A stretch of 64,000 nucleotides of DNA from Carboxylicivirga sp. (GTDB taxonomy: Bacteria; Bacteroidota; Bacteroidia; Bacteroidales; Marinilabiliaceae): contig JAOARW010000037.1 of assembly GCA_025210475.1 (NCBI GenBank), positions 1 through 64,000 on the forward strand, written 5' to 3'. The notes beneath the pieces are model-generated. The model ran no database searches. It was not told the DNA's origin and worked only from the letters and a program-made list of their open reading frames with translations. Below, one piece after another: positions 11,820 through 59,301 of this stretch (position 1 is its first letter; each line of letters begins with the position of its first letter). Made by a program: the position numbers and the translations under genes.

Positions 11820-13256
11820 TTAAAACCTTGCATACCACCTTAGTTCAACTCCTTTAAAATCCAGTACTTCGTAGCAAACACCGGCACTACAGGCTGGTCC
11901 TCCGCGTCTTTCGCCGGCAAATAGCTGTAAGGTGTGCTTGGTGTTAACCTTATAGCGCAAGGTTGAACTCAGCCAGATTTTATCTGTATCGGTGATGAAA
12001 TTGTCGTTACTCCACTCGTTGAGTACACTCCAATAAAATTTCGATTTGTAATTGTACGTTACTCCGCCGGCAATATTTTGATTATCGTCGTTATCGCGTT
12101 TGAAGGTTTGGTATTCCAATTCAAATAAAACCCCGTGATTGGTTTTTACTTTTTGCTCCAGATTGAAACCGGTTGAAATACGATCTTTTTCACCTTTTAA
12201 AGGATCGTTGGCGTAATCGGCAAAAACCTTCAAGTCGGCATTTTTAAAGGATGTGGATACTTCGGCAAACCATTCGCGAAACTTCAAAGTACTGCCAAAA
12301 TCATTATTGGCGATGGTGTGATTAAGCGTAATTAATGTATTTTCTGAAGCATGGTAAAAGGCTTCAAATTGAAAACCCGATTCGTTTTCAGGCTGCAATA
12401 CATGCGTGCTTCTGTTTAAAACCCGATACGAATGCTCTTTAACCAAGGCAGGCGGTTCGTTAATTCCCGATCCGATTACAAATCTTTCGTAGTCTTTCCA
12501 CTCGGCACTAAAACCAAAGTCGCCCTTGGCAAAGTTTAATGAAGCGTACATGGCATGGCCATTATCATCGGTATTGATGGTACTGGCATAGGCGGCGTAA
12601 TAGCTTAAGTAGGGAAGAATACGACCGCTGAGATTACCCAATGCATAATCGGTATTGGCAGCGCTGTTTTCGTGATGCATAAACGTAGCCCCAATGGTTT
12701 GCTTAAATAGCTTATATTCACCCGAGATGGCAGCAATCTGATCATCACGACGCACATCCATTTTTTCAGTCGGATTAATAACATTGTTCAGTGCCCAGCC
12801 ATACGAAGCCTTTAAGCGAAATTTCTTATGGCGGTAACTGGCCGAAGCGCCTAGTAAGTCTCTATAAAAATACTGTTTGCTTCTAAAACTCAAATCTTCA
12901 ATAACGGCGCCATGTATTTCATAAGATCGCAGTAATATTCCCCGACCTATTGTTTCGTTGAAATTACCAAGGTTAAACTCCCATCCTTTATTGCGGTAGT
13001 TTAATCCCAACCAACCGGGTTCTACATAATTTCGATCACCATAGGGCGAAATATAATATTGTGCACCAGCCTTTATCTTCAACTTGTTGTAGCGATAGTT
13101 GAGGTTTATTTTGTTGTAAAGTGCGTTAAAAGACGACTCATTGGCGCCGGGCAGTTGACCGTATTGGTACTCCATTAAACTGGTTCCGCTCAACTGAGCG
13201 TTAGCCGGTTCAATCACCAATAAGCTTAACAAAATGAGTGGAAGCAAATGTTTCAT
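11820..13256 (-). CDS. DUF6029 family outer-membrane protein
   Basis: A 478-residue protein with a Sec signal (cleavage after ANA, about residue 20). Alternating amphipathic strands run to a C-terminal aromatic residue (WYARF), as in outer-membrane beta barrels. GNFNETIGRGILLRSYE matches the DUF6029 pattern. It is the last gene of a three-gene operon, overlapping the upstream thioredoxin gene by 4 bp (ATGA). It may be a porin or scaffold for the periplasmic redox proteins, but the substrate is unknown. Confidence 0.72.
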   Translation of the reverse strand: MKHLLPLILLSLLVIEPANAQLSGTSLMEYQYGQLPGANESSFNALYNKINLNYRYNKLKIKAGAQYYISPYGDRNYVEPGWLGLNYRNKGWEFNLGNFNETIGRGILLRSYEIHGAVIEDLSFRSKQYFYRDLLGASASYRHKKFRLKASYGWALNNVINPTEKMDVRRDDQIAAISGEYKLFKQTIGATFMHHENSAANTDYALGNLSGRILPYLSYYAAYASTINTDDNGHAMYASLNFAKGDFGFSAEWKDYERFVIGSGINEPPALVKEHSYRVLNRSTHVLQPENESGFQFEAFYHASENTLITLNHTIANNDFGSTLKFREWFAEVSTSFKNADLKVFADYANDPLKGEKDRISTGFNLEQKVKTNHGVLFELEYQTFKRDNDDNQNIAGGVTYNYKSKFYWSVLNEWSNDNFITDTDKIWLSSTLRYKVNTKHTLQLFAGERRGGPACSAGVCYEVLDFKGVELRWYARF

Positions 13257-13744
13257 TGTATGTTTTTCTTTACATAGGCCTCAATTTCTTTTTCATTACC
13301 TGTTGACCAGCCTTCGTGTCGCCAGATAATTTCCCCACTTTGATCGACCAACAATAAGGTTGGAAGCGCAGAAACATTAAGCTCGTTACTAACTTCATTA
13401 TTAATGTCGGAAAGTACCGGATAACTCAAGTTGAGGGTTTGAGATAAAGGCAAAACTTTGGAAATACTTCTCGGACCATCGGTATTGATACTGATAACAT
13501 TCAATCCCTGATCTTTATAGTTGTTATAAATCTCATCAATCTTAGGCATTGATTTTAAGCAAGGCTTACACCAAGAGGCCCAAAAATCAATAATGGTTAA
13601 TTTGTCTCCTTGTAATTCTTCAAATTCAACCCAATCCCCTTCCAGGTTTTCGAGGCTGAAATTGAAAACCTTTTGTGCCGATGATTGAAAGGTGAATCCA
13701 ATCACCAGCACAAAAAACAATATTATTCGATGGTGCTTGATCAT
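13253..13744 (-). CDS. TlpA-like periplasmic thioredoxin
   Basis: A 163-residue exported protein with a signal peptide (about 1-23) and a thioredoxin fold. The redox motif is WASWCKPC and the cis-Pro segment is SALPTLLLVD. TlpA/ResA-type proteins reduce disulfides in the periplasm, often for cytochrome or metal-site assembly. It overlaps both neighbours by 4 bp, indicating coupled translation with the lipoprotein upstream and the DUF6029 protein downstream. Confidence 0.88.
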   Translation of the reverse strand: MIKHHRIILFFVLVIGFTFQSSAQKVFNFSLENLEGDWVEFEELQGDKLTIIDFWASWCKPCLKSMPKIDEIYNNYKDQGLNVISINTDGPRSISKVLPLSQTLNLSYPVLSDINNEVSNELNVSALPTLLLVDQSGEIIWRHEGWSTGNEKEIEAYVKKNIQ

Positions 13745-14307
13745 AGTAAACTCTTAACTTTTGTTACAACTGCACTAATGTCTTTTGAAGCACCCTGGCT
13801 GCCTTTGAAAACAATTTTACCATCCTGATCAACAACAATCAAGCGATCATAAGTGGTATTGTAGTCAGAGGCTACAGACGAAGCATTCAGCAATAAAGGA
13901 AAGTTTACACCAGTGGTGTTTTTAAATCCTTGTACGGCAGAGTCTTTTCCATTCCATTGATCAAGACCAATAATGGCAAAACCGGCATTCGAAGCAAAAG
14001 CATCGGCAATATCTGTTTGTACTTTGGGTGCAGCAGCTTTACATGACGGGCAACTGTTACCAAAGAAAAACAACACCAATACTTTGTCTTCAAAATCGTT
14101 TAAGGCAACGGTTGAACCATCCAAAGCTTTCAGCGAAAAATCGGGTGCCGATTTCGCATTCATATCTTTCATTTCACCTGGATTTTCATCCATCATTTCT
14201 TCCATGTCATCTCCGGAGTCACTGCAGCTGGCAAGAGCAAAAGCAATGAAACAACTGAATAAAATTAGCTTGGAGGATGCGATAATCGTGTGGTATGTCC
14301 TTTTCAT
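13741..14307 (-). CDS. Thioredoxin-fold lipoprotein with Met/Asp-rich linker
   Basis: A 188-residue lipoprotein (LASC lipobox, Cys28) with an AhpC/TlpA-type domain and the motif FGNSCPSC. Between the lipid anchor and the domain lies an acidic linker containing DDMEEMMDENPGEMKDM, with five methionines in 17 residues. Such Met-rich stretches can bind copper, but that is only a guess here. It is the first gene of the operon, so two TlpA-like proteins are made together. No clear -7 box is visible upstream. Confidence 0.82.
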   Translation of the reverse strand: MKRTYHTIIASSKLILFSCFIAFALASCSDSGDDMEEMMDENPGEMKDMNAKSAPDFSLKALDGSTVALNDFEDKVLVLFFFGNSCPSCKAAAPKVQTDIADAFASNAGFAIIGLDQWNGKDSAVQGFKNTTGVNFPLLLNASSVASDYNTTYDRLIVVDQDGKIVFKGSQGASKDISAVVTKVKSLL

Positions 14308-14440
14308 ATTAAAAGATGTTTAAATATTAATATGATTGTTTAGACGGACGTTTTGAACTTACCTTACATTAAAAAAGAAAAAAATATGAATTATTTTTTA
14401 TTTGCCTTAATAACAAGCTGTTTAGTGGGGGAGGTAAAAG

Positions 14441-28933: not shown

Positions 28934-29494
28934 ATGAATCATCAACTCAATCCGGATAGCTGGGTAGATGCCTATGGCGACTATCTTTACCGCTATGCTT
29001 TTACACGGGTAAGTAGTTCCGAGATAGCAGAAGATTTAGTTCAGGAAACGTTTCTGGCAGGCATAAAAGGCTTGGCTTCCTTCGAGGGGAAAAGTAATGA
29101 GCGTACCTGGCTAACGGCCATATTAAAACGTAAGATTATTGATTTCTATCGAAAGAAATCAACTTCGATGGAAATGAAAATCGAAAGCAAGGATGATCGT
29201 TTTGGAAAGTATGGTTCGATGGATGATCATTGGATGGAGAACAAGGCACCCAAAGAGTGGCAAATTAATGCCGACGAGGATTTAGAGAATTCTGAATTTA
29301 AAGCCATACTGCAAGCCTGCATAAAGCACCTACCCGAAAAATGGGCCTCGTGTTTTATTTTAAGAACGATGGAAGAAATGAAAGGTGAAGAAGTGTGTAA
29401 GGAATTAAATATTACTTCGTCTAATATGTGGGTGATGCTTCATAGAGCCCGTCTTCAGCTCAGAGATTGTTTAGAAAATAACTGGTTTAAATAG
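28934..29494 (+). CDS. ECF-type sigma-70 family sigma factor
   Basis: A 186-residue sigma factor with region 2 (DAYGDYLYRYAFTRVSSSEI, then AEDLVQETFLAGIKG, and TWLTAILKRKIIDFYRKK) and region 4 (LPEKWASCFILRTM, then KELNITSSNMWVMLHRARLQL). The frame is open back to 28793, but the ATG at 28934 fits the family start. It is followed 12 bp later by a zinc-finger anti-sigma candidate and then the RiPP precursor gene. It probably controls the RiPP operon, by analogy with other bufferin loci that carry an ECF factor. Confidence 0.9.
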   Translation: MNHQLNPDSWVDAYGDYLYRYAFTRVSSSEIAEDLVQETFLAGIKGLASFEGKSNERTWLTAILKRKIIDFYRKKSTSMEMKIESKDDRFGKYGSMDDHWMENKAPKEWQINADEDLENSEFKAILQACIKHLPEKWASCFILRTMEEMKGEEVCKELNITSSNMWVMLHRARLQLRDCLENNWFK

Positions 29495-29505
29495 AAAGGT
29501 TGATA

Positions 29506-29781
29506 ATGGATACAAAAGGAAAAATGATGATTACTTGTAAAGAAGCAACTTTTCTTATTTCAAAAAAGCAGCAGGATCGATTAAATTTCTTTGAAAAGAT
29601 GCAGTTGCGGCTGCATCTCATGATGTGTAAGTATTGTCGGCGATTTTCTATTCAGGTTAATTTTATGACGAAGGCCATTCAACGCATGAAGAACAAAGTA
29701 GAGGAGAGAGGTGTGGAGATTAAGTTGAATGAAGAGCAGAAAAAACGTTTAAGAAGGAAAATAACTGAGGCAGAAAAATAA
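29506..29781 (+). CDS. Small zinc-finger (zf-HC2-like) anti-sigma factor candidate
   Basis: A 91-residue cytosolic protein with ITCKEATFLISKKQQDRL and then HLMMCKYCRRF, giving a Cys...His-x3-Cys-x2-Cys set as in zf-HC2 anti-sigma factors. It has no membrane segment, so it would be a soluble redox- or metal-responsive anti-sigma factor. It starts 12 bp after the ECF gene; the ATG at 29506 is preferred to a TTG at 29500. Its partner is inferred from position. Confidence 0.75.
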   Translation: MDTKGKMMITCKEATFLISKKQQDRLNFFEKMQLRLHLMMCKYCRRFSIQVNFMTKAIQRMKNKVEERGVEIKLNEEQKKRLRRKITEAEK

Positions 29782-29872
29782 ATCAAATTTCTTGTAAGGA
29801 TAAAATAGATAGTTCGTCTAAGTTGACAAAAAATAAAAGAAATAACTATCTTAATGTATTAAAAATATCGTT

Positions 29873-30319
29873 ATGAGAACAAAGAAAGAAAAACGAAGTC
29901 GTTTACTAAAAACGGTTGTTATTGGAGGTATGATAGCAGGTGCATCAAGTTTAAGTGCTAATGCAGGCGATTTACTCAATTACGGTGATTTAGGTTCCGG
30001 TTCGGAATTAAGAAGCGATTTGCTGGAGCAGTATGGTTCACCAGTTAGTACAGCCAATTTGCCAAGCGATTATATCGTAGGTGAAGCCAAATGTGGCGAA
30101 GGAAAGTGTGGTGAAGGAAAATGCGGCGAGGGAAAAGAAAAGACGAAAGAGAAAAAAGGGAAAGAAGCTAAAACAGCCAAAAAAGGAGAGACCAAAACAA
30201 GTGAAGCTAAGTGCGGTGAAGGAAAATGTGGCGAGGGGAAATCAAATAAAAAAGAAGCAAAAAAGAAAGAGACTAAAACAGGCGAAGGAAAATGTGGAGA
30301 AGGAAAGTGTGGTAGTTAA
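29873..30319 (+). CDS. Bufferin/oxazolin-like RiPP precursor with seven E(G/A)KCG motifs
   Basis: A 148-residue exported peptide. A Sec signal (about 1-31, cleavage after SANA) is followed by a conserved-looking core (LGSGSELRSDLLEQYG). The rest is Lys/Glu/Gly-rich. All seven cysteines (74, 79, 84, 114, 119, 141, 146) lie in EGKCG or EAKCG units, in clusters of 3, 2 and 2 with 5-residue spacing. In bufferins and Haemophilus oxazolins, Cys in EGKCG is converted to a thiooxazole by a DUF692 enzyme and binds copper. The DUF692 gene here is 155 bp downstream. It is not the classical DUF2282 form. Confidence 0.85.
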   Translation: MRTKKEKRSRLLKTVVIGGMIAGASSLSANAGDLLNYGDLGSGSELRSDLLEQYGSPVSTANLPSDYIVGEAKCGEGKCGEGKCGEGKEKTKEKKGKEAKTAKKGETKTSEAKCGEGKCGEGKSNKKEAKKKETKTGEGKCGEGKCGS

Positions 30320-30327
30320 CGCCGAAG

Positions 30328-30368
30328 GGTTGAGCTGGAATGCGAGAACCAGCTCAACCTAATTTTTT
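30328..30368 (+). terminator. Terminator between RiPP precursor and maturation genes
   Basis: Perfect 11-bp stem GGTTGAGCTGG (30328-30338) with CCAGCTCAACC (30349-30359), then a six-T run at 30363-30368. It lies 8 bp after the precursor stop and would make the precursor mRNA more abundant than the enzyme mRNA. A weak -7-like box TACTTTTA lies at 30451-30458. Confidence 0.8.
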
Positions 30369-30474
30369 ACTCGAAATCAGCTTATTAAGCAGTTTAAAAC
30401 GCCATCAAACTTCTACTGGTGTTTTTGATCATTAACAATCTAAACTGTTGTACTTTTAACTTAGCTTTTAGCTT

Positions 30475-31305
30475 ATGGAAATTGGAATAGGATTCAGGCG
30501 CGATTTTGCTGATGAGTTTTTGGTGAACAAAGAGTTTCAGCCCGATTTTATTGAGTTGGCACCAGAAAACTGGATTGGCATGGGGGGCTATTGGAAAAAG
30601 AAATTAGATGCAGTTGCCGAAAAATATCCCATTACTTGTCATGGTTTATCCTTATCTATAGGAAGTCCCGATGATTTGGATATGGACTTTTTAAAAGAGT
30701 TGAAAAGTTTTCTGAATCAGTACGATGTAAAGATTTACTCAGAGCATTTATCGTTTGCGAAAGCTTCCAATGCGCATTTATATGATTTATTGCCGATACC
30801 CTTTCGGGAGGATGCAGTAAAGCATATTGCTGAACGGATTCGTATTGTGCAGGATTACCTGGAGCGGCCTTTAGTTATCGAAAATGTGTCTTATTATACT
30901 TCTGTTGCAGCGCAAATGACAGAGTTGGAATTTATAACACAGATTCTGGACGAATCCGCCTGTCAGCTATTGCTCGATGTTAATAATGTGTATGTTAATG
31001 CTTTTAATCACGGCTATGATGCCAAAAGCTTTATTTCAGCATTACCACTCAGTAAGGTGGCATACATACACATGGCAGGGCACGAAAAGGTTAGTGATGA
31101 TCTGATTATCGACACGCATGGCAAAGCTATTATTGACCCGGTTTATGACTTGTTTGATTATACGGTTGAATTAATGCAGCCTGTTTCGGTGCTGCTAGAG
31201 CGCGACTTCAATATACCAGAAACCAAAGAGTTGATTGGTGAAATGAATGCCTTGGGGAAAATTGTTTCAAATCATTGGGAGGAAAAACATGTTACTTCGG
31301 GATGA
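30475..31305 (+). CDS. DUF692 multinuclear iron oxidase (MNIO), BufB-like
   Basis: A 276-residue TIM-barrel enzyme of the family that oxidatively modifies Cys in RiPP precursors using a multi-iron site. Family motifs with likely metal ligands: CHGLSLSIG (His56), YSEHLSF (Glu90, His91), VIENVSYY (Glu136, Asn137), LLLDVNNVYVN (Asp168), HMAGH (His199, His203), DTHG (Asp213, His215) and LLERD (Glu242, Asp244). It likely acts in the cytosol on the precursor at 29873. It overlaps the DUF2063 gene by 17 bp. Confidence 0.94.
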   Translation: MEIGIGFRRDFADEFLVNKEFQPDFIELAPENWIGMGGYWKKKLDAVAEKYPITCHGLSLSIGSPDDLDMDFLKELKSFLNQYDVKIYSEHLSFAKASNAHLYDLLPIPFREDAVKHIAERIRIVQDYLERPLVIENVSYYTSVAAQMTELEFITQILDESACQLLLDVNNVYVNAFNHGYDAKSFISALPLSKVAYIHMAGHEKVSDDLIIDTHGKAIIDPVYDLFDYTVELMQPVSVLLERDFNIPETKELIGEMNALGKIVSNHWEEKHVTSG

Positions 31306-32035
31306 CACCAAACACATACAAGAACAACTAGCATCTTTTTGCCTGACAGGAGAATTTGGTGATATTAAGTTGAGCAGGCCGGAGGTTGTATCTCATTATC
31401 GGCGATTAATATCCAACGTATTTCGTTCAATATTAGAATCGGCTTATCCAATTACAGAAGAATGGTTGAGCGAGGAGGAATGGGAGTTTTTATTACACGA
31501 ATTTATGTCTAAACATGCTTCGCAAACACCTGCCGTTTGGAAGATGCCACAGGAATTTGCTGAATTTGTAAGCGATGGTGATTATGCTGAACAACTAAAC
31601 AAGCTGGCATTAAATGATTTGGTTTGGCTTGAATGGTGCGAAATAGATGTGCACACCATGGCTGATACGGTTGAACCGGTATCAGCAGGCACACCCTTTA
31701 ATCCCGAAGATGTATTAGCCGTTAATCCTTATCATCAGGTGATTCAATTGGATTATCCGATTCATAAAATGAATGCAAGCGAAGCTGAAGCCAATAAAGG
31801 AAATTACTATGTGTTGGTATATCGCATCATTGAGAGCGGACAGGTTCGTTTTATTGAGTTATCGCCACTGCATGTAGCTATAATTCAAAAATTGAGTGAA
31901 AGCCCGGCGCGCATTAGTGATATTGCACCGCAGCTTTGTTTAATATTTGGCATAGAATTTACATCAGAAATTCGTAAACATATGGAACAATTTTGTTCCG
32001 ACTTCGTAGATAAAGAAATATTAATTGCCTCGTAA
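31289..32035 (+). CDS. DUF2063 partner protein, BufC-like
   Basis: A 248-residue protein. The N-terminal half matches the DUF2063 (misnamed 'putative DNA-binding') domain: HIQEQLASFCLTGE and then HYRRLISNVFRSILESAYPI. The C-terminal half is a winged-helix-like segment. In bufferin and HvfC systems this protein binds the precursor leader and presents it to the DUF692 enzyme. The ATG at 31289 has a GGGAGG box just upstream and lies inside the 3' end of the DUF692 gene, so the two are co-translated. Confidence 0.9.
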   Translation: MLLRDDTKHIQEQLASFCLTGEFGDIKLSRPEVVSHYRRLISNVFRSILESAYPITEEWLSEEEWEFLLHEFMSKHASQTPAVWKMPQEFAEFVSDGDYAEQLNKLALNDLVWLEWCEIDVHTMADTVEPVSAGTPFNPEDVLAVNPYHQVIQLDYPIHKMNASEAEANKGNYYVLVYRIIESGQVRFIELSPLHVAIIQKLSESPARISDIAPQLCLIFGIEFTSEIRKHMEQFCSDFVDKEILIAS

Positions 32036-32093
32036 TTAATAGATAAGTTGCCAAACCATCCTTTATTGTTTAATAATAACTAAATCCTTTGTT

Positions 32094-32534
32094 ATGGATC
32101 GGATAATTAATTTGATTAACAAGGCAGCTGAAAAAACAGGCGATTGGGCTTTATTGGCTATGCGATTAACGCTTGCTTTTGGTTTTTTTGATCCAGCCAT
32201 CAAGAAATTTGATAACATTAATGGAACGGCTGAATGGTTTGCCTCAATGAATTATCCGTTACCAACGGTGAATGTAATTTTGGCTGCAAGTTTTGAGTTT
32301 GCAGGCTTTTTTCTGTTAATGTTGGGTTTACTAACACGTTATATTACCATTCCTTTAATGTTTATCATGCTGGTAGCTATTTTTACGGTGCATTTGGGTA
32401 ACGGATTTGCTGCCGGAGATAATGGCTTCGAAATACCATTTTATTACCTGGTGATGTTATTTATTCTTTTTAGTAAAGGGCCTGGTCGGTTCAGTATTGA
32501 TGCTGCAGTGATTGATAAATATAAAGAAGCTTAA
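32094..32534 (+). CDS. DoxX family membrane protein (BufD-like)
   Basis: A 146-residue inner-membrane protein with four hydrophobic helices and DoxX features (ALLAMRLTLAFGFFDPAIKK, a long polar loop before TVNVILAASFEFAGFFLLMLG). DoxX proteins often accompany DUF692/DUF2063 pairs in bufferin loci, where they may supply electrons or help export. It lies 58 bp after the DUF2063 gene, with a terminator behind it, and is the last gene of the locus. Confidence 0.88.
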   Translation: MDRIINLINKAAEKTGDWALLAMRLTLAFGFFDPAIKKFDNINGTAEWFASMNYPLPTVNVILAASFEFAGFFLLMLGLLTRYITIPLMFIMLVAIFTVHLGNGFAAGDNGFEIPFYYLVMLFILFSKGPGRFSIDAAVIDKYKEA

Positions 32535-32554: not shown

Positions 32555-32588
32555 TAGAGGCTATTACTAAACGGTGGCCTCTATTTTT
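32555..32588. terminator. Terminator after the RiPP locus
   Basis: Stem TAGAGGC (32555-32561) with GCCTCTA (32577-32583), followed by TTTTTA. It lies between convergent genes. Confidence 0.7.
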
Positions 32589-54043: not shown

Positions 54044-56305
54044 ATGCACAAATTATTTACTTTCCTGATATTTTTATTGGCCCTTGCATGTCAATCGCCA
54101 CAAAAGGTAGAACAGTATTCAATCATACCATTACCACAATCGATCAATTATGGTGATGGATTTTTAGAGCTTGAGTCAACACTCAGTCTGCAATGCGATC
54201 AACCAGACGGTTTAGAACTGAAAGAACTTTTTAATGAAATGGGGAAATCGCACAGTATAAGGCTCGGTGGGGCATCCGATGCAACACCAATGTTATTGGT
54301 ACATCGGCCTGAGCTCAAAGAAGAAAGCTATCGACTTAATATTGGTAAAGAAAAAATCACCATTGAAAGTAGTTCGAAAGCCGGTTGGATATATGGTTTT
54401 CAAAGCTTCTTACATTGTTTGCCCCTCGATAATAAAGCTAAGGTATTGGTTCGATGTGGTACCATTGATGATGAACCGCGTTTCTCATATCGTGGCATGC
54501 ACCTTGATGTTTCACGTCACTTTTTTATGAGCGATGAAGTAAAGTCATTTGTCGATCAGATGGTGCATTACAAATTGAATAAATTACACCTTCACCTGAC
54601 CGATGATCAGGGATGGCGACTGGAAATTGAGCAATACCCTTTGTTGACAGAGAAAGGAGCATGGCGAACGCATAATTCGCAGGATAGTTTATGCATCAAA
54701 CGTTCGGCAGAAGATAAAACCTTTTTAATTCCTGAAGATCGCTACCGGCAAATTGAAGGGGTGAAAAAATACGGAGGCTATTACACCAAAGACGATATGC
54801 GCGACATCATTAATTATTGTGCTGCCCGCAATATCGAAGTAATTCCTGAGATTGATATCCCGGGCCATTTTAAGGCAGCTATTGACAACTACTCATTTCT
54901 TTCCTGTTCAGAAAAGGCGGGCTGGGGTTCACATTTTTCTTACCCCGCGTGTTTGGGTAAGGCTACCACATATGAGTTTATCGAAAACATAATGAGTGAA
55001 GTTGCCGAATTATTTCCGTCAAAATATATTCACATTGGAGGTGATGAAGTCAACAAGGATGAGTGGAAAAAATGCGAACGTTGCCAGAAGGCTATTAAAA
55101 AGAATGGTTTAAAAGATGAGCACGAACTGCAGTCCCACTTTAATCATCACATTGAGGCCTTTATAAATAAAAAAGGAAAGCAATTAATTGGCTGGGACGA
55201 AATTGTAGAAGGCGGATTATCCAATTCTTCAACGGTTATGTGGTGGCGCAATTGGGCTCCTAATACCATTCGCGAAGCCACAAAAAATGGTAACAAGGTG
55301 ATTATGACACCTGATTTTGAATACTATTTCGACTTTCCGTATTCGGCTACACCAACAAGCAAAGTGTACAATTTCGAACCTGTGCCAGATGATTTTACCG
55401 CCGATATGGCTGATAAAGTATGGGGTGTTCAGGCTAACATCTGGACCGAACGCATTCCGAATATGAACCGGGTGTATTACCAGGCATTGCCACGCATGCT
55501 GGCATTGGCCGAAAGTGGTTGGACAAATAAATCGCTGAAGGATTACAAGTCATTTGAAAACCGACTAAACAAGCAGTATGCTTACTTTGAGAACGAAGGT
55601 TTGTTTTATCATTTACCTGCTTTGAGTGGATTTGATAAAACGAAAGTCTTTATCGATGAAGCTGTTTTTGAGATTAATATACCCGATGATGAGATGACGG
55701 TTTATTACACATTGGATGGATCAGCACCAACACCTGCGTCAAGCAAATATTCAGGAAGCATCGCATTAAAAGAATCGGCCAAAATATGTTTTCGCGCTTA
55801 TAAAAACGATGTGTTTAGTAAGATTTATGAAGCCGAATTTGAAAAGCAACTGATGGCTGATCCAATTGAAGTGAGTGTATTACCTGGTCTTGTACGCAAG
55901 TATTTCAAAGGCCGCTATTGGAAATGTTCAGATGTGAAAATTGATCAAAAGCCGGATGCTCATTCAGTTGTTACTGATTTTGGTTTGGGCGAATACAAAG
56001 GTCAGGAGAACTATGCCTTGATATTTGAAGGATACTACAAGGCCGAAACCGATGGAATTTATACCTTCTATACCAATTCTGATGATGGCGATCAGCTATT
56101 TATTCATGATCGCTTGGTGGTTAATAACGACCCAAGTCATGGGCCACGTGTTCGCCAGGGTGCCATTGCGCTTAAAGCGGGTTTGCATCCTATTCGTTTA
56201 ATCTACAGTCAAATTGGAGGCGGTGCAATACAGGAAGTTTTTGTGGCAACTCCTGCAAAAGAAGAACAACAGATTCAAGCAGATGAGCTCTTTTATAAAA
56301 ATTAA
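54044..56305 (+). CDS. GH20 beta-N-acetylhexosaminidase lipoprotein with PA14 domain
   Basis: Removes terminal GlcNAc or GalNAc from glycans at the cell surface or periplasm. The 753-residue lipoprotein has lipobox LALAC (Cys16), a GH20b domain (about 25-145) and a GH20 barrel (about 148-500). Catalytic Asp334-Glu335 lie in HIGGDEVNKDE, and HLTDDQGWR and IPEIDIPGH are present. A chitobiase-C-like segment (YYTLDGSAPTPASSKY) and a PA14 carbohydrate-binding domain (about 640-745) follow. It heads a three-gene glycan operon. Confidence 0.94.
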   Translation: MHKLFTFLIFLLALACQSPQKVEQYSIIPLPQSINYGDGFLELESTLSLQCDQPDGLELKELFNEMGKSHSIRLGGASDATPMLLVHRPELKEESYRLNIGKEKITIESSSKAGWIYGFQSFLHCLPLDNKAKVLVRCGTIDDEPRFSYRGMHLDVSRHFFMSDEVKSFVDQMVHYKLNKLHLHLTDDQGWRLEIEQYPLLTEKGAWRTHNSQDSLCIKRSAEDKTFLIPEDRYRQIEGVKKYGGYYTKDDMRDIINYCAARNIEVIPEIDIPGHFKAAIDNYSFLSCSEKAGWGSHFSYPACLGKATTYEFIENIMSEVAELFPSKYIHIGGDEVNKDEWKKCERCQKAIKKNGLKDEHELQSHFNHHIEAFINKKGKQLIGWDEIVEGGLSNSSTVMWWRNWAPNTIREATKNGNKVIMTPDFEYYFDFPYSATPTSKVYNFEPVPDDFTADMADKVWGVQANIWTERIPNMNRVYYQALPRMLALAESGWTNKSLKDYKSFENRLNKQYAYFENEGLFYHLPALSGFDKTKVFIDEAVFEINIPDDEMTVYYTLDGSAPTPASSKYSGSIALKESAKICFRAYKNDVFSKIYEAEFEKQLMADPIEVSVLPGLVRKYFKGRYWKCSDVKIDQKPDAHSVVTDFGLGEYKGQENYALIFEGYYKAETDGIYTFYTNSDDGDQLFIHDRLVVNNDPSHGPRVRQGAIALKAGLHPIRLIYSQIGGGAIQEVFVATPAKEEQQIQADELFYKN

Positions 56306-56348
56306 AAATGAGTGATTTGTAATGACAAATGAAAGTAAATTAGAGTAT

Positions 56349-57446
56349 ATGAAAAATATTTTACCTGTCTTTTTAATGTTTCTGACACTGGCATGTGTTG
56401 GTAAAGACAAAAATAATCAGCAGGCTGTGCAACTTCCCAAATTTCAGCCCGAGCAATATGTTTGCTATCGCACAGCGGAGCCGCTAAAGATTGATGGAGA
56501 ATTAAATGAGGGAGCATGGCAAAATGTTCCCTGGACCAATCTTTTTGTCGATATCGAGGGCGATAAAAAGCCGATGCCAACCTGGGAAACCAGAGCCAAA
56601 ATGTTATGGGACGATAAATACCTATATGTTGGAGCATACCTTGAAGAACCGCACTTGTGGGCTACCATCACCAAACGCGATGCTGTTATTTTTTACGATA
56701 ACGACTTTGAAGTTTTTATTGATCCGGATGGAGATACGCATGGTTATTATGAGTACGAAGTAAATGCTTTTAACACGGTTTGGGATTTGCTTTTGGCCAA
56801 GCCCTATCGCGAGGGAGGCCCGGCCATTAATAACTGGGATATTAATGGATTGAAATCGGCTGTTAGTTTAATGGGAACAATCAATCAGCCCAACGATGAG
56901 GATGAAGGATGGTACGTAGAAATTGCTTTTCCCTTGCATGTTTTGCATGAGTACTGTGGTGGTGTTAAAGCCAAGGCTGGTAATCAGTGGCGCATTAACT
57001 TCAGTCGTGTGCAATGGCAGCGCGAAGTGAAAGAGGGTACTTATCACAAAAAGATTAATCCGGAAACAGGTAAATCATATCCGGAAGATAACTGGGTTTG
57101 GTCGCCGCAAGGCTTTATCAATATGCACCGTCCTGAAACATGGGGTTTTCTTCAGTTCTCGGATGTCATTGCCGGTGAAGGAGAGGAGGCTTTTGTTTAC
57201 AATGAGGATGAGTCTGTGAAATGGGAACTGTTTTCAATTTATCATGCACAGAAAGTTTATCGCAAGCAAGATGGTAAGTATGCCAATCAGTTGGTTGAGT
57301 TGGAAAAAGTAGGGTTAAGTAACCTTAAATATGCCACAAAGGTAGAAACAACAGCTTCTTTGTTTGAGGCACAGGCAACACGCAAGGGTAGTAAGTTTAT
57401 CTGGCACATTAATAATGAAGGGCGTACCTGGCGAAGTAAAAAATAG
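56349..57446 (+). CDS. CBM9-like carbohydrate-binding lipoprotein
   Basis: A 365-residue lipoprotein (FLTLACVG, Cys16). The core resembles family 9 carbohydrate-binding modules: LKIDGELNEGAWQNVPWT, YLYVGAYLEEPHLWA, DNDFEVFIDPDGD and WRINFSRVQW. No catalytic residues are evident; Bacteroidota proteins of this type are usually in glycan-degradation loci. The ATG at 56349 is chosen because it opens the signal peptide; the earlier ATG at 56322 belongs to a short leader repeat. It lies between the GH20 and GH29 genes. Confidence 0.82.
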   Translation: MKNILPVFLMFLTLACVGKDKNNQQAVQLPKFQPEQYVCYRTAEPLKIDGELNEGAWQNVPWTNLFVDIEGDKKPMPTWETRAKMLWDDKYLYVGAYLEEPHLWATITKRDAVIFYDNDFEVFIDPDGDTHGYYEYEVNAFNTVWDLLLAKPYREGGPAINNWDINGLKSAVSLMGTINQPNDEDEGWYVEIAFPLHVLHEYCGGVKAKAGNQWRINFSRVQWQREVKEGTYHKKINPETGKSYPEDNWVWSPQGFINMHRPETWGFLQFSDVIAGEGEEAFVYNEDESVKWELFSIYHAQKVYRKQDGKYANQLVELEKVGLSNLKYATKVETTASLFEAQATRKGSKFIWHINNEGRTWRSKK

Positions 57447-57541
57447 TATTGACAGAAGGAAATTGATTTTAGTCAAATGAAACGAACATGTAAATTTTAA
57501 TCGTAAATATTACACACAGGGTAATGATTAAAATTACTTGA

Positions 57542-57575
57542 GAGTTCCATCCCGCCAGGCGGGACAAGTTATGAC
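57542..57575 (+). repeat. Hairpin leader repeat, copy 2
   Basis: GAGTTCCATCCCGCCAGGCG..., an inverted TCCCGCC/GGCGGGA hairpin followed by AAGTTATGAC. It matches the unit at 50983 and lies 20 bp before the fucosidase ATG. Confidence 0.6.
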
Positions 57576-57594
57576 AAATGAAAATAAATGTAAG

Positions 57595-59301
57595 ATGAAA
57601 AGATTTCTGATTTATGTAACGCTGGCGTTTGTGCTGTTAAGTACGGCAAATGCGCAAAAAGAGACAAACGAAACAGCTAAGGAAAAGGATAAAAGAATGG
57701 CCTGGTTTAAAGATGCCAAGCTGGGCATTTTTATTCACTATGGTATTTATGCTGTTAATGGCATTGATGAGTCCTGGTCATTTTTTAATGGTTACATCAA
57801 TTACGAGGATTATATGAAGCAGATGGATGGTTTTACTGCCAGCCAGTATCAGGCTCAGGAGTGGGCCCGTATATTCAAAGAGAGCGGAGCCAAATATGCT
57901 GTTTTAACCACCAAGCATCACGATGGCGTGGCACTTTGGGATAGTCAGACAGATCATTTTAGTACTGTAAAAAATACGCCTGCTAAAAAGGACATTGTTG
58001 CGCCTTTTGTAAAAGCTTTAAGAAAAGAAAAGCTGAAGGTAGGTTTGTATTATTCGTTGATTGACTGGTCGTACCCCGATTATCCGGCGCATTTGCGTAA
58101 TAAAAAGCGTTACCAGAAAGATCTGGAACGATGGGCGAAGTTTACCGACTTTTATTTTACGCAAATGTATGAACTGTCATCCCGTTTTAACCCTGATTTG
58201 TATTGGTTTGATGGCGATTGGGAGCATTCGGCCGAAGAGTGGAAAGCCAAAGAGTTGCGTAAATTAATGCTGATATACAACAAAAACGTCATTTTAAACA
58301 GTCGCCTGCGCGGATACGGTGATTACGATACACCAGAACAAGGTGTGCCAATTAGTAAGCCCAATAATCCATATTGGGAACTGTGTATGACTATGAATGA
58401 TTCGTGGGGTTATCAGCATAACGATCATAATTATAAAACACCTTACCAGATGATTCGCATATTTGTGGATTGCATTAGTATGGGTGGTAATTTACTATTG
58501 GATATTGGTCCCAAAGCCGATGGTTCTATTCCTGAGCCGCAGCTGGAAATCCTAAAAGAATTTGGTCGTTGGACGAGTAAGCACAGTGAAGCTATTTATG
58601 GAACACGTGCCGGAATCGATCAGAAGCATTTCACCGGACCGTCAGCTTTATCCAAGGATGGCGAGACTTTATACTTATACATCGACCGAAAGCCTAATCA
58701 TGCTGTTTTGGTTAATGGCTTAGATGTTGAACCTAAAAAGGTTCGTGTGGTTGGTAAGGATGTTAGTCTGCCATTTAATTTTGATGATAACCTGCTATCC
58801 ATTGATTTGGATGCAAAGGATTGCGATCAAACCATGACGGTAATTGCAGTTGATCTAAAACAAAACATCAAATTGGTACATCCTGAGAAGAGCTTACACG
58901 AATATGAAATGGCCGAGGTGATGAAGGATGATCAGTGGCGAAAGAAACACCGCATTGCACTGGATAATATGGCAGATCCAATTCCTGGCGGGCACTATAA
59001 TGGCCCTACGGCGTTGTCGAAAGACAAAAGTATCATGTACCTGATGGTAGATGGTAAAAACAATGGACCACTGGTGGTACGCGGGTTAAAGAATAAGATT
59101 AATCGCATTTGGGTGGTTGGCAATGGTACTAAACTCAGCCACAAAGAAAATGGTAAGCTATACTGGAGCCAAACGCCGGGCATCGTTTATATCGATTTGC
59201 CAGAAAAAGTTTTGGACAAAAACATGACGGTGATTGCTGTTTTACTGGATGGACAATTAAACCTTCATCGCGGTAAAGGCCATGTCATCGAAAGTAATTA
59301 A
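57595..59301 (+). CDS. GH29 alpha-L-fucosidase
   Basis: Removes alpha-linked fucose from glycans. The 568-residue secreted protein has a signal peptide ending STANAQ. GH29 motifs: WFKDAKLGIFIHYG, LTTKHHDGVALWDS, and DLYWFDGDWEH with nucleophile Asp206. The C-terminal part holds two similar beta domains (GPTALSKD repeated, each followed by a VDGK/DRK segment). The ATG at 57595 is chosen because the longer frame from 57538 reads through a hairpin repeat. With GH20 upstream it suggests use of fucosylated, amino-sugar-containing glycans such as mucins. Confidence 0.94.
   Translation: MKRFLIYVTLAFVLLSTANAQKETNETAKEKDKRMAWFKDAKLGIFIHYGIYAVNGIDESWSFFNGYINYEDYMKQMDGFTASQYQAQEWARIFKESGAKYAVLTTKHHDGVALWDSQTDHFSTVKNTPAKKDIVAPFVKALRKEKLKVGLYYSLIDWSYPDYPAHLRNKKRYQKDLERWAKFTDFYFTQMYELSSRFNPDLYWFDGDWEHSAEEWKAKELRKLMLIYNKNVILNSRLRGYGDYDTPEQGVPISKPNNPYWELCMTMNDSWGYQHNDHNYKTPYQMIRIFVDCISMGGNLLLDIGPKADGSIPEPQLEILKEFGRWTSKHSEAIYGTRAGIDQKHFTGPSALSKDGETLYLYIDRKPNHAVLVNGLDVEPKKVRVVGKDVSLPFNFDDNLLSIDLDAKDCDQTMTVIAVDLKQNIKLVHPEKSLHEYEMAEVMKDDQWRKKHRIALDNMADPIPGGHYNGPTALSKDKSIMYLMVDGKNNGPLVVRGLKNKINRIWVVGNGTKLSHKENGKLYWSQTPGIVYIDLPEKVLDKNMTVIAVLLDGQLNLHRGKGHVIESN

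Follow-up and report, generated by a model that had tools for sequence, protein, structure and literature searches.

An HvfABCX-type peptide locus behind an ECF sigma factor and a zinc anti-sigma factor in Carboxylicivirga, with a putative promoter inside the sigma gene

In nontypeable Haemophilus influenzae, HvfB and HvfC convert the six core cysteines of the peptide HvfA to copper-binding 5-thiooxazoles, and a further protein, HvfX, is uncharacterised (PMC13419390). The sigma factor RpoE2 of the same organism controls, under hypochlorous acid (HOCl), a cluster encoding UPF0276, DUF2063, periplasmic and DoxX-like proteins together with msrAB (PMC7907618). Here we describe a relative of this system at positions 28,934 to 32,534 of the first 64,000 nucleotides of contig JAOARW010000037.1 of Carboxylicivirga sp. 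(Bacteroidota; assembly GCA_025210475.1), a stretch referred to below as the window. The locus is an HvfABCX operon, encoding a ribosomally synthesized and post-translationally modified peptide (RiPP) of the oxazolin or "captophorin" thiooxazole type, behind genes for an extracytoplasmic function (ECF) sigma factor and a zinc anti-sigma (ZAS) factor of the RsrA/MseR type. The peptide adds a new Bacteroidota representative, with a branch-specific leader, to a known family. Its control circuit, as read from the DNA, varies on arrangements already described: a promoter word is conserved, a redox regulon can be predicted, and a putative feedback promoter is embedded in the sigma gene.

Fontiphorin carries seven 5-thiooxazoles, and oxazolin has been re-assigned to the same chemistry (PMC13097082). 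EGKCG precursors number approximately 2,000, mostly from Pseudomonadota (PMC12452194), and a lipidated EGKCG peptide shows a mass shift of -4 Da per motif (PMC12636315). In meningococcus, one operon contains genes for a sigma factor, its anti-sigma factor MseR and four proteins that were then of unknown function, including one DoxX-like, and msrA/msrB are co-regulated with it (PMC2893595). Peptides of this kind are already known to be paired with such regulators; an ECF sigma/ZAS pair and hvf genes as a linked unit in Bacteroidota were not found in the open-access papers searched.

Genes of the locus and their relatives

Genes were named using NCBIfam and Pfam profile searches with curated cut-offs or gathering scores, and the six genes originally predicted (sigma, zinc-finger, peptide, DUF692, DUF2063 and DoxX) were found in that place and order, all on the forward strand. 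The ECF sigma factor gene (28934..29494, 186 aa) passes TIGR02943 (172.2 bits, cut-off 162.2) and has Sigma70_r2 and r4_2 domains in Pfam. The soluble ZAS gene (29506..29781, 91 aa) was identified by NF052368 (64.1 bits, cut-off 50) and by its Cys/His spacing, with a zf-HC2 match below the Pfam gathering score. It is followed by the precursor gene hvfA (29873..30319, 148 aa); by hvfB, encoding an MNIO (DUF692) enzyme (30475..31305, 276 aa; NF003818, 389.2 bits, cut-off 360; PF05114, 337 bits); by hvfC, encoding its DUF2063 partner (31289..32035, 248 aa; PF09836 and PF22106 both above gathering score), whose reading frame shares 17 bases with that of hvfB; and by hvfX, encoding a DoxX-family membrane protein (32094..32534, 146 aa; NF050144, 119.4 bits, cut-off 80; PF07681). 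By sequence the nearest PDB entries are 3bww for HvfB (E 7e-69) and 3dee for HvfC (E 6.6e-4), structures that are listed as members of such clusters (PMC13097082).

The precursor is a Lys/Glu/Gly-rich peptide with exactly seven cysteines, two in EAKCG and five in EGKCG, and the claim that these fall into three clusters (3+2+2) in 5-residue steps with charged linkers between them proved correct. Its N-terminus is signal-like as judged by eye, and the leader sequence NYGDLGSGSELR lies between this N-terminus and the Cys core; the overall layout is a signal-like N-terminus, the leader GDLLNYGDLGSGSELRSDLLEQYG and then the seven E(G/A)KCG cysteines. The core passes the HvfA family domain model NF050137 (32.6 bits, cut-off 19.5) and fails the equivalog NF050188 (31.5 bits, cut-off 95), making it a family member and not the named equivalog. 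A peptide with at least two KCG motifs adjoins HvfB in 23 of the 24 other Bacteroidota loci fetched, and across 24 Bacteroidota precursors, window included, the number of cysteines ranges from 4 to 9. Locus L067 (G109; genomes and loci are given by our own G and L numbers) has HvfB and HvfC and no KCG-repeat precursor within the fetched 10 kb, so that its precursor may differ or lie elsewhere; at the E 1e-30 threshold of the phylum search, TIGR02943 did not match this genome either. The refuting condition set beforehand, precursor homologues without DUF692 genes, did not hold: all four genomes matching NF050137 among 395 phylum genomes have HvfB above cut-off, in a search that is insensitive, missing the window's own genome, and unfit for a census.

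The four genes and their families are those of the H. influenzae HvfABCX system, as are the AEGKCGEGKCG core, the precursor signal peptide and control by an ECF sigma factor with a small cytoplasmic ZAS, msrAB belonging to the regulon there (PMC13419390, PMC7907618). The H. influenzae peptide has six cysteines in three repeats, whereas that of the window has seven in a 3+2+2 arrangement, long charged linkers and a different leader (PMC13419390); the H. influenzae sigma gene lies beside msrAB and away from the cluster, whereas the window's sigma and anti-sigma genes stand directly upstream of it. The fontiphorin (FonABC)/captophorin class shares the EGKCG repeats, an MNIO with PME1 (DUF2063) and seven sites, but is from Pseudomonadota, and the available text describes no linked sigma/anti-sigma pair (PMC13097082). 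Bufferins, both BufA1 (DUF2282) and BufA2 (6 or 12 Cys), are likewise accompanied by MNIO, DUF2063 and DoxX proteins, with sigma genes linked to Buf1, but belong to other precursor families, and their anti-sigma factor is NrsF and not a ZAS (PMC12452194). The window's precursor matches no Pfam family and is not a DUF2282 protein, as had been anticipated; its seven cysteines do not fit the 6/12 pattern of BufA2, in a comparison of Cys counts and not of the profile; and the MNIO_BufB model reaches 283.2 bits against a cut-off of 310. The bufferin label of the original prediction was therefore rejected in the strict sense, while the oxazolin-type (EGKCG) MNIO/DUF2063/DoxX cluster, its precursor with multiple Cys sites and its ECF factor are supported.

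That the window peptide carries thiooxazoles can be predicted with confidence from these relatives, and the exported, sulphur-rich product probably binds copper. It is highly improbable that it is instead an unmodified secreted Cys-rich protein binding metals through free thiols, since KCG-repeat precursors so regularly accompany HvfB and a His/Asp/Glu set of HvfB (H56, E136, D168, H199, D213, H215 and E242), which we take to be metal ligands, is invariant in 16 of 16 aligned proteins.

A lineage-specific precursor class had also been suggested, and this held for the leader only. An LGSGxExR-like word is found in 23 of 24 Bacteroidota precursors (window included) and in 11 of 12 named Bacteroidota, against 0 of 48 from other phyla, where an NPF..GY leader occurs in 38 of 48 against 0 of 36 Bacteroidota. 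The regular expression for the former was widened after inspection of the sequences, a stricter version fitting 15 of the 24; the two Bacteroidota sets overlap by at least one record counted twice (L074 and L136 are the same contig), and 20 of the 80 named loci yielded no precursor under the filter. In a tree of 48 HvfB rows (27 from the 80 named loci), 14 gammaproteobacterial rows are separated from the remainder at 99/99 support, with the bootstrap not settled. The other side contains Bacteroidota, one Chlamydiota and one Verrucomicrobiota metagenome-assembled genome, and one contig labelled Beijerinckiaceae (Pseudomonadota; L142) with a Bacteroidota-type HvfB and a sigma factor 46% identical to that of the window, which reflects either transfer or a binning error. 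The Bacteroidota HvfA leader (LFxYxxLGSGxExR-like) is lineage-specific. The leaders and the tree could also be taken to mean that the Bacteroidota precursors form a RiPP class of their own, with other chemistry, but this is quite unlikely, as the HvfA core, HvfB and HvfX pass curated models and the EGKCG repeat is the motif of characterised members; a new class was rejected for the core. HvfB above cut-off is patchily distributed: the window's family has it in 10 of 71 genomes, an order draw in 9 of 198 and a phylum draw in 7 of 395, the own genome being counted in each.

The anti-sigma factor has its putative zinc ligands in the pattern C11-X25-H37-X3-C41-X2-C44. All 15 anti-sigma genes at Bacteroidota hvf loci, that of the window among them, keep the C-X25-H-X3-C-X2-C spacing. 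The window's protein agrees with the ZAS definition C-X23-26-H-X3-C-X2-C, being small, encoded next to the sigma gene and, by eye, free of a transmembrane helix. RsrA of Streptomyces, which is opened by oxidation, has the same residue numbers (C11, H37, C41, C44), and meningococcal MseR has C4, H30, C34 and C37 (PMC2893595). The neisserial operon NMB2140-2145 resembles the locus in combining an ECF sigma factor, a ZAS of the same spacing and hvf-type genes, with msrA/msrB co-regulated. It differs in that sigma and anti-sigma are numbered last and sigma is autoregulated with the operon; an embedded promoter is not mentioned in the accessible portion (PMC2893595).

A promoter-like element and its link to the sigma gene

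The element TGTAAGG-N15-CGTCTA was first recognised by aligning the regions upstream of hvfA, and in the window it lies at 29793..29820 on the forward strand. Of 24 regions upstream of hvfA in Bacteroidota, the window's among them, 14 contain its strict form (TGTAAG-N16-CGTC; mean of 0.004 in 500 letter shuffles) and 18 a loose form allowing CGAC or AGAC (shuffled mean 0.012), counts that are not independent of an element derived from these regions. Exact or slightly changed, it precedes hvfA in 17 of 23 Bacteroidota relatives. The loose form occurs at 13 of 15 loci with an adjacent sigma gene and at 5 of 9 without. When the regions upstream of the sigma genes were searched for a self-dependent promoter, the element was found in 0 of 15. 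In L071 (G565), hvfABC and the sigma/anti-sigma pair diverge from one another and the hvfX homologue lies approximately 1.9 kb past the anti-sigma gene; here the word before hvfA is found only in degenerate form (TGTCAGG).

A scan of the window allowing up to one mismatch gave three matches, all exact (shuffles averaged 0.14, and three were reached in 1 of 100). With one base relaxed, the own genome (7.4 Mb) gave four matches, against 0 for a reversed control. Three of them are the window copies, which lie before hvfA, within the sigma gene and upstream of a redoxin-TlpA-DUF6029 operon; the fourth is on a different contig. This fourth match (G000:C108:40077-40104; L081, L082) has no recognisable gene directly downstream, the nearest feature noted being a 103-aa frame approximately 0.8 kb away on the same strand, and it may be due to chance or may drive an unannotated RNA.

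Element and sigma gene co-occur. Among the 71 genomes of the family, 22 exact 13-base matches were found in 13 genomes. Each of these 13 belongs to a set of 17 genomes that have a strong TIGR02943-type sigma factor (at least 135 bits, the next genome's best being 73; p = 4e-11, with binomial p-values here and below ignoring shared ancestry). With hits inside sigma genes excluded, 10 of 10 word-bearing genomes have the sigma factor (p = 4e-8), whereas the reversed pattern gave 7 matches in 7 genomes and no link to sigma (p = 0.67). Eight of the 22 matches are inside sigma genes, six precede hvfA and eight precede other genes, and all 14 of those outside sigma genes lie 25-97 bp upstream of a start codon. 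HvfB also co-occurs with the sigma factor in the family (9 of 10, versus 17 of 71 overall; p = 3e-6), the exception being an 86% complete genome (G422). In three family genomes the sigma and hvf genes are on different contigs, yet the element precedes hvfA, exactly in G441, with one changed base (CGAC) in G420 and with two (AGAC) in G443. A draw of 395 genomes across the phylum gave the same association: 17 of the 21 word-bearing genomes have the sigma factor, which 55 of all 395 genomes possess (p = 1e-12, compared with p = 0.34 for the reversed pattern). Sigma genes contain 11 of the 30 matches in this draw; hvfA lies downstream of 2 and some other gene downstream of 10, leaving 7 whose position is implausible or unclear.

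The copy of the element within the sigma gene

The copy at 29396..29423 (+) lies in frame within the sigma gene, in codons 155-164, and encodes CKELNITSSN of region 4.2 (Sigma70_r4_2 spans residues 125-176). It ends 82 bp before the anti-sigma ATG, a distance of 81-89 bp in five family relatives with a plain Met start. Codon usage was examined in 61 sigma genes (52 from Bacteroidota genomes, window included, and 9 from named records, among them L142) over 171 codon columns. Three gammaproteobacterial homologues (L170, L180, L202) were left out, one of which (L180) was read at the embedded site and lacks the word. The four most biased third positions of the 171 were codons 162, 156, 155 and 163, in that order: G in 50 of 61 at codon 162 (expected 13.9), G in 48 at 156 (18.4), T in 55 at 155 (36.7) and T in 35 at 163 (17.5). 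These are exactly the third bases of TGTAAGG and CGTCT, and the full TGTAAGG-N15-CGTC is in register in 33 of the 61 genes. Shared ancestry shrinks the p-values but affects all columns alike, so the column ranking stands. The same four columns came out on top in the family sample (17 sigma genes, 11 in register), and in the phylum sample (29 genes with the window, 13 in register) codon 162 was first, 156 second and 155 fourth.

A similar layout has been described in Corynebacterium glutamicum, where a SigH-dependent promoter within sigH drives the ZAS gene rshA from starts 62 and 66 nt upstream, and sigH itself is transcribed from housekeeping promoters (PMC3489674). The two arrangements share a sigma-dependent promoter, predicted in the window from sequence conservation, inside the sigma coding region for a ZAS; they differ in that sigH-rshA is actinobacterial and has another promoter consensus, and the accessible text describes no codon-level conservation (PMC3489674). 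By this analogy the embedded element appears to be a sigma-dependent promoter for the anti-sigma gene, providing negative feedback, and such a layout would explain the missing word upstream of the sigma gene. In the open-access papers searched, we found no report of the TGTAAGG word or its embedded copy in Bacteroidota. A neisserial sigma promoter consensus was also sought, and none was found in the available parts of PMC7907618 and PMC3240639.

The element could alternatively be a trace of protein or codon constraint in an otherwise identical HvfABCX system, the anti-sigma gene being read solely from the sigma promoter. The conserved peptide CKELxITSSN partly forces TGTAAGGA...TC, and 28 of the 61 sigma genes lack the full embedded form. 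Codon 162, however, is NCG in 50 of 61 genes although its residue varies (TCG 20, CCG 14, GCG 13, ACG 3), and NCN codons there end in G in 50 of 57 cases versus 329 of 1894 elsewhere in the same genes. Lys156 is AAG in 38 of 40 genes versus 263 of 911 for Lys elsewhere in them, where AAA is preferred. These two codons are the top two synonymous sites in all three samplings (which share some genes), and the embedded element has exactly the spacing of the hvfA element. These synonymous bases are under additional constraint; a mere codon coincidence was not upheld, and we regard the codon-trace explanation as unlikely.

Predicted regulon and inducing signal

The third element in the window (14341..14368, reverse strand) matches exactly and lies 33 bp upstream of the start codon of a lipoprotein-like redoxin gene (13741..14307; AhpC-TSA/Redoxin, PF00578 62.2 bits, PF08534 58.8 bits). 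It is the first gene of a putative reverse-strand operon approximately 15 kb from the sigma gene, with a thioredoxin gene that we call TlpA-like (13253..13744; PF00578 78.7 bits, PF13905 65.8 bits) and a gene for a DUF6029 protein (11820..13256; PF19494 73.2 bits); export of the redoxin was judged by eye. Genes downstream of the word outside hvf loci were identified by Pfam. Besides hvfA and this redoxin, the family targets are AhpC/TSA (G407, G443, and G408 by near-identity to the G407 protein and not by a Pfam scan of its own), MsrA (G437) and DsbD (G436), with two targets of no Pfam family (G436, G412). In the phylum draw they are MsrB (SelR domain; G166, G099, G019, G082), thioredoxin (G053), DM13 (G292), an FMN oxidoreductase (G234), a histidine kinase (G019) and a YHS-like protein (G012; 24.9 bits, below the cut-off of 30.3). 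Thiol and methionine-sulfoxide repair prevail among the co-targets (AhpC/TSA 3, MsrA 1, MsrB 4, DsbD 1, thioredoxin 1). No copper exporter is among them, copper genes without the exact motif lying outside the search.

Two loci, L233 (G012) and L222 (G308), have a second word approximately 350 bp past the sigma-embedded copy and directly downstream of the anti-sigma gene. In G012 it precedes the small exported YHS-like protein, at the position held by hvfA in the window, and this protein is a possible further effector; in G308 a script-based search found no gene downstream of it.

Given a zinc-thiol sigma/anti-sigma pair and Msr, peroxiredoxin and DsbD co-targets, copper alone is not an obvious inducer. 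Copper does attack Zn-thiolate sites, and the response may be chiefly one to copper stress, with copper freeing the sigma factor through thiolate attack or zinc displacement and redox genes following because copper oxidises the envelope. Thiooxazole peptides of the family bind copper, and bufferins aid growth under copper stress (PMC12452194, PMC13097082, PMC13419390); moreover, meningococcal sigma-E expression is unaltered by oxidative stimuli despite the RsrA-type cluster of MseR (PMC2893595). Against this, the anti-sigma factor shares its spacing with RsrA, a protein opened by oxidation (PMC2893595), HOCl and H2O2 induce the H. influenzae relative (PMC7907618), and the co-targets are as given above. 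A chiefly copper-driven response is less likely than not, and the best reading places the peptide among the effectors of a thiol-redox regulon of the envelope that is not purely copper-induced.

We consider the following complete model probable. HvfC would present the HvfA precursor for modification, and HvfB, an iron enzyme, would oxidise up to seven KCG cysteines to copper-binding 5-thiooxazoles ahead of Sec export, with HvfX as an assisting protein. The neighbouring ECF sigma factor would govern transcription and be kept inactive in the cytoplasm by the RsrA/MseR-like anti-sigma factor, whose Cys cluster is expected to open upon thiol oxidation or metal displacement. The freed sigma factor would then read the TGTAAGG-N15-CGTCTA promoters before hvfA, before the envelope redoxin-TlpA operon and within the sigma gene, the last of which, in the region 4.2 codons, would raise the anti-sigma factor and shut the response down. 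From the sequence we establish which genes are present, that the elements are conserved and accompany the sigma gene, and that the synonymous bases carry additional constraint; we infer the promoter activity, the signal, the Cys chemistry and the copper binding at this locus.

Several findings weigh against this model. HvfC scores 111.6 bits with NF050145, below the cut-off of 142. Not even the loose form of the element occurs in six of the 24 regions upstream of hvfA, codon 163 is outside the six most biased columns in the phylum sample, and raw word matches in the phylum draw (30) are fewer than those of the reversed control (45). The number of matches alone proves nothing, and association, placement and codon bias were relied upon instead. 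The seven implausible or unclear phylum matches comprise three antisense in genes, one by a transposase-like gene, two before a 221-aa gene and one with no gene. The derivation of the element from hvfA regions, the shared ancestry ignored by the p-values, the 28 sigma genes lacking the full form and the meningococcal result count on the same side.

Downstream of hvfA, in the gap before hvfB, is a terminator-like hairpin (30328..30359, +) with an 11-bp perfect stem followed by 7 T in 10 (minimum free energy -23.1 kcal/mol, z -3.27). Its loop is 10 nt and the terminator pattern list covered loops of 3-8 nt, hence its absence from that list. With it, the precursor could be made in excess over the enzyme. 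Counting the window, 11 of 23 gaps between hvfA and hvfB have perfect stems of at least 6 bp, and their U-tracts vary; as only part of the relatives carry a hairpin, a conserved switch was dropped and the hairpin is kept as anatomy. A second terminator-like site, a pattern match only, follows hvfX (32555..32583, +). Elsewhere in the window, at 54044-59301, are genes for a glycoside hydrolase family 20 hexosaminidase and an alpha-L-fucosidase, an ordinary glycan-use setting.

Thiooxazole metallophores have been described mostly from Pseudomonadota, and the locus adds to them a distinct branch in Bacteroidota that has a leader of its own. The exact promoter word gives a testable regulon, predicting the sites of this sigma factor in Bacteroidota genomes known only by sequence, and the recurrent pairing with Msr, seen in Neisseria, Haemophilus and Bacteroidota, points to a role of these peptides in envelope-oxidation defence. 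Tentatively, and at close to an even chance, we propose that across much of the Bacteroidota a single DNA segment may be jointly selected as sigma region 4.2 codons and as a promoter, read by that same sigma factor, for the anti-sigma gene, and that the window's pair may drive both the peptide and the redoxin/TlpA genes, the peptide mainly guarding the envelope against oxidation, copper-catalysed or not, and not acting as a plain copper buffer. The embedded promoter, if real, would show overlapping codes with unusual clarity, in a form legible from synonymous sites alone.

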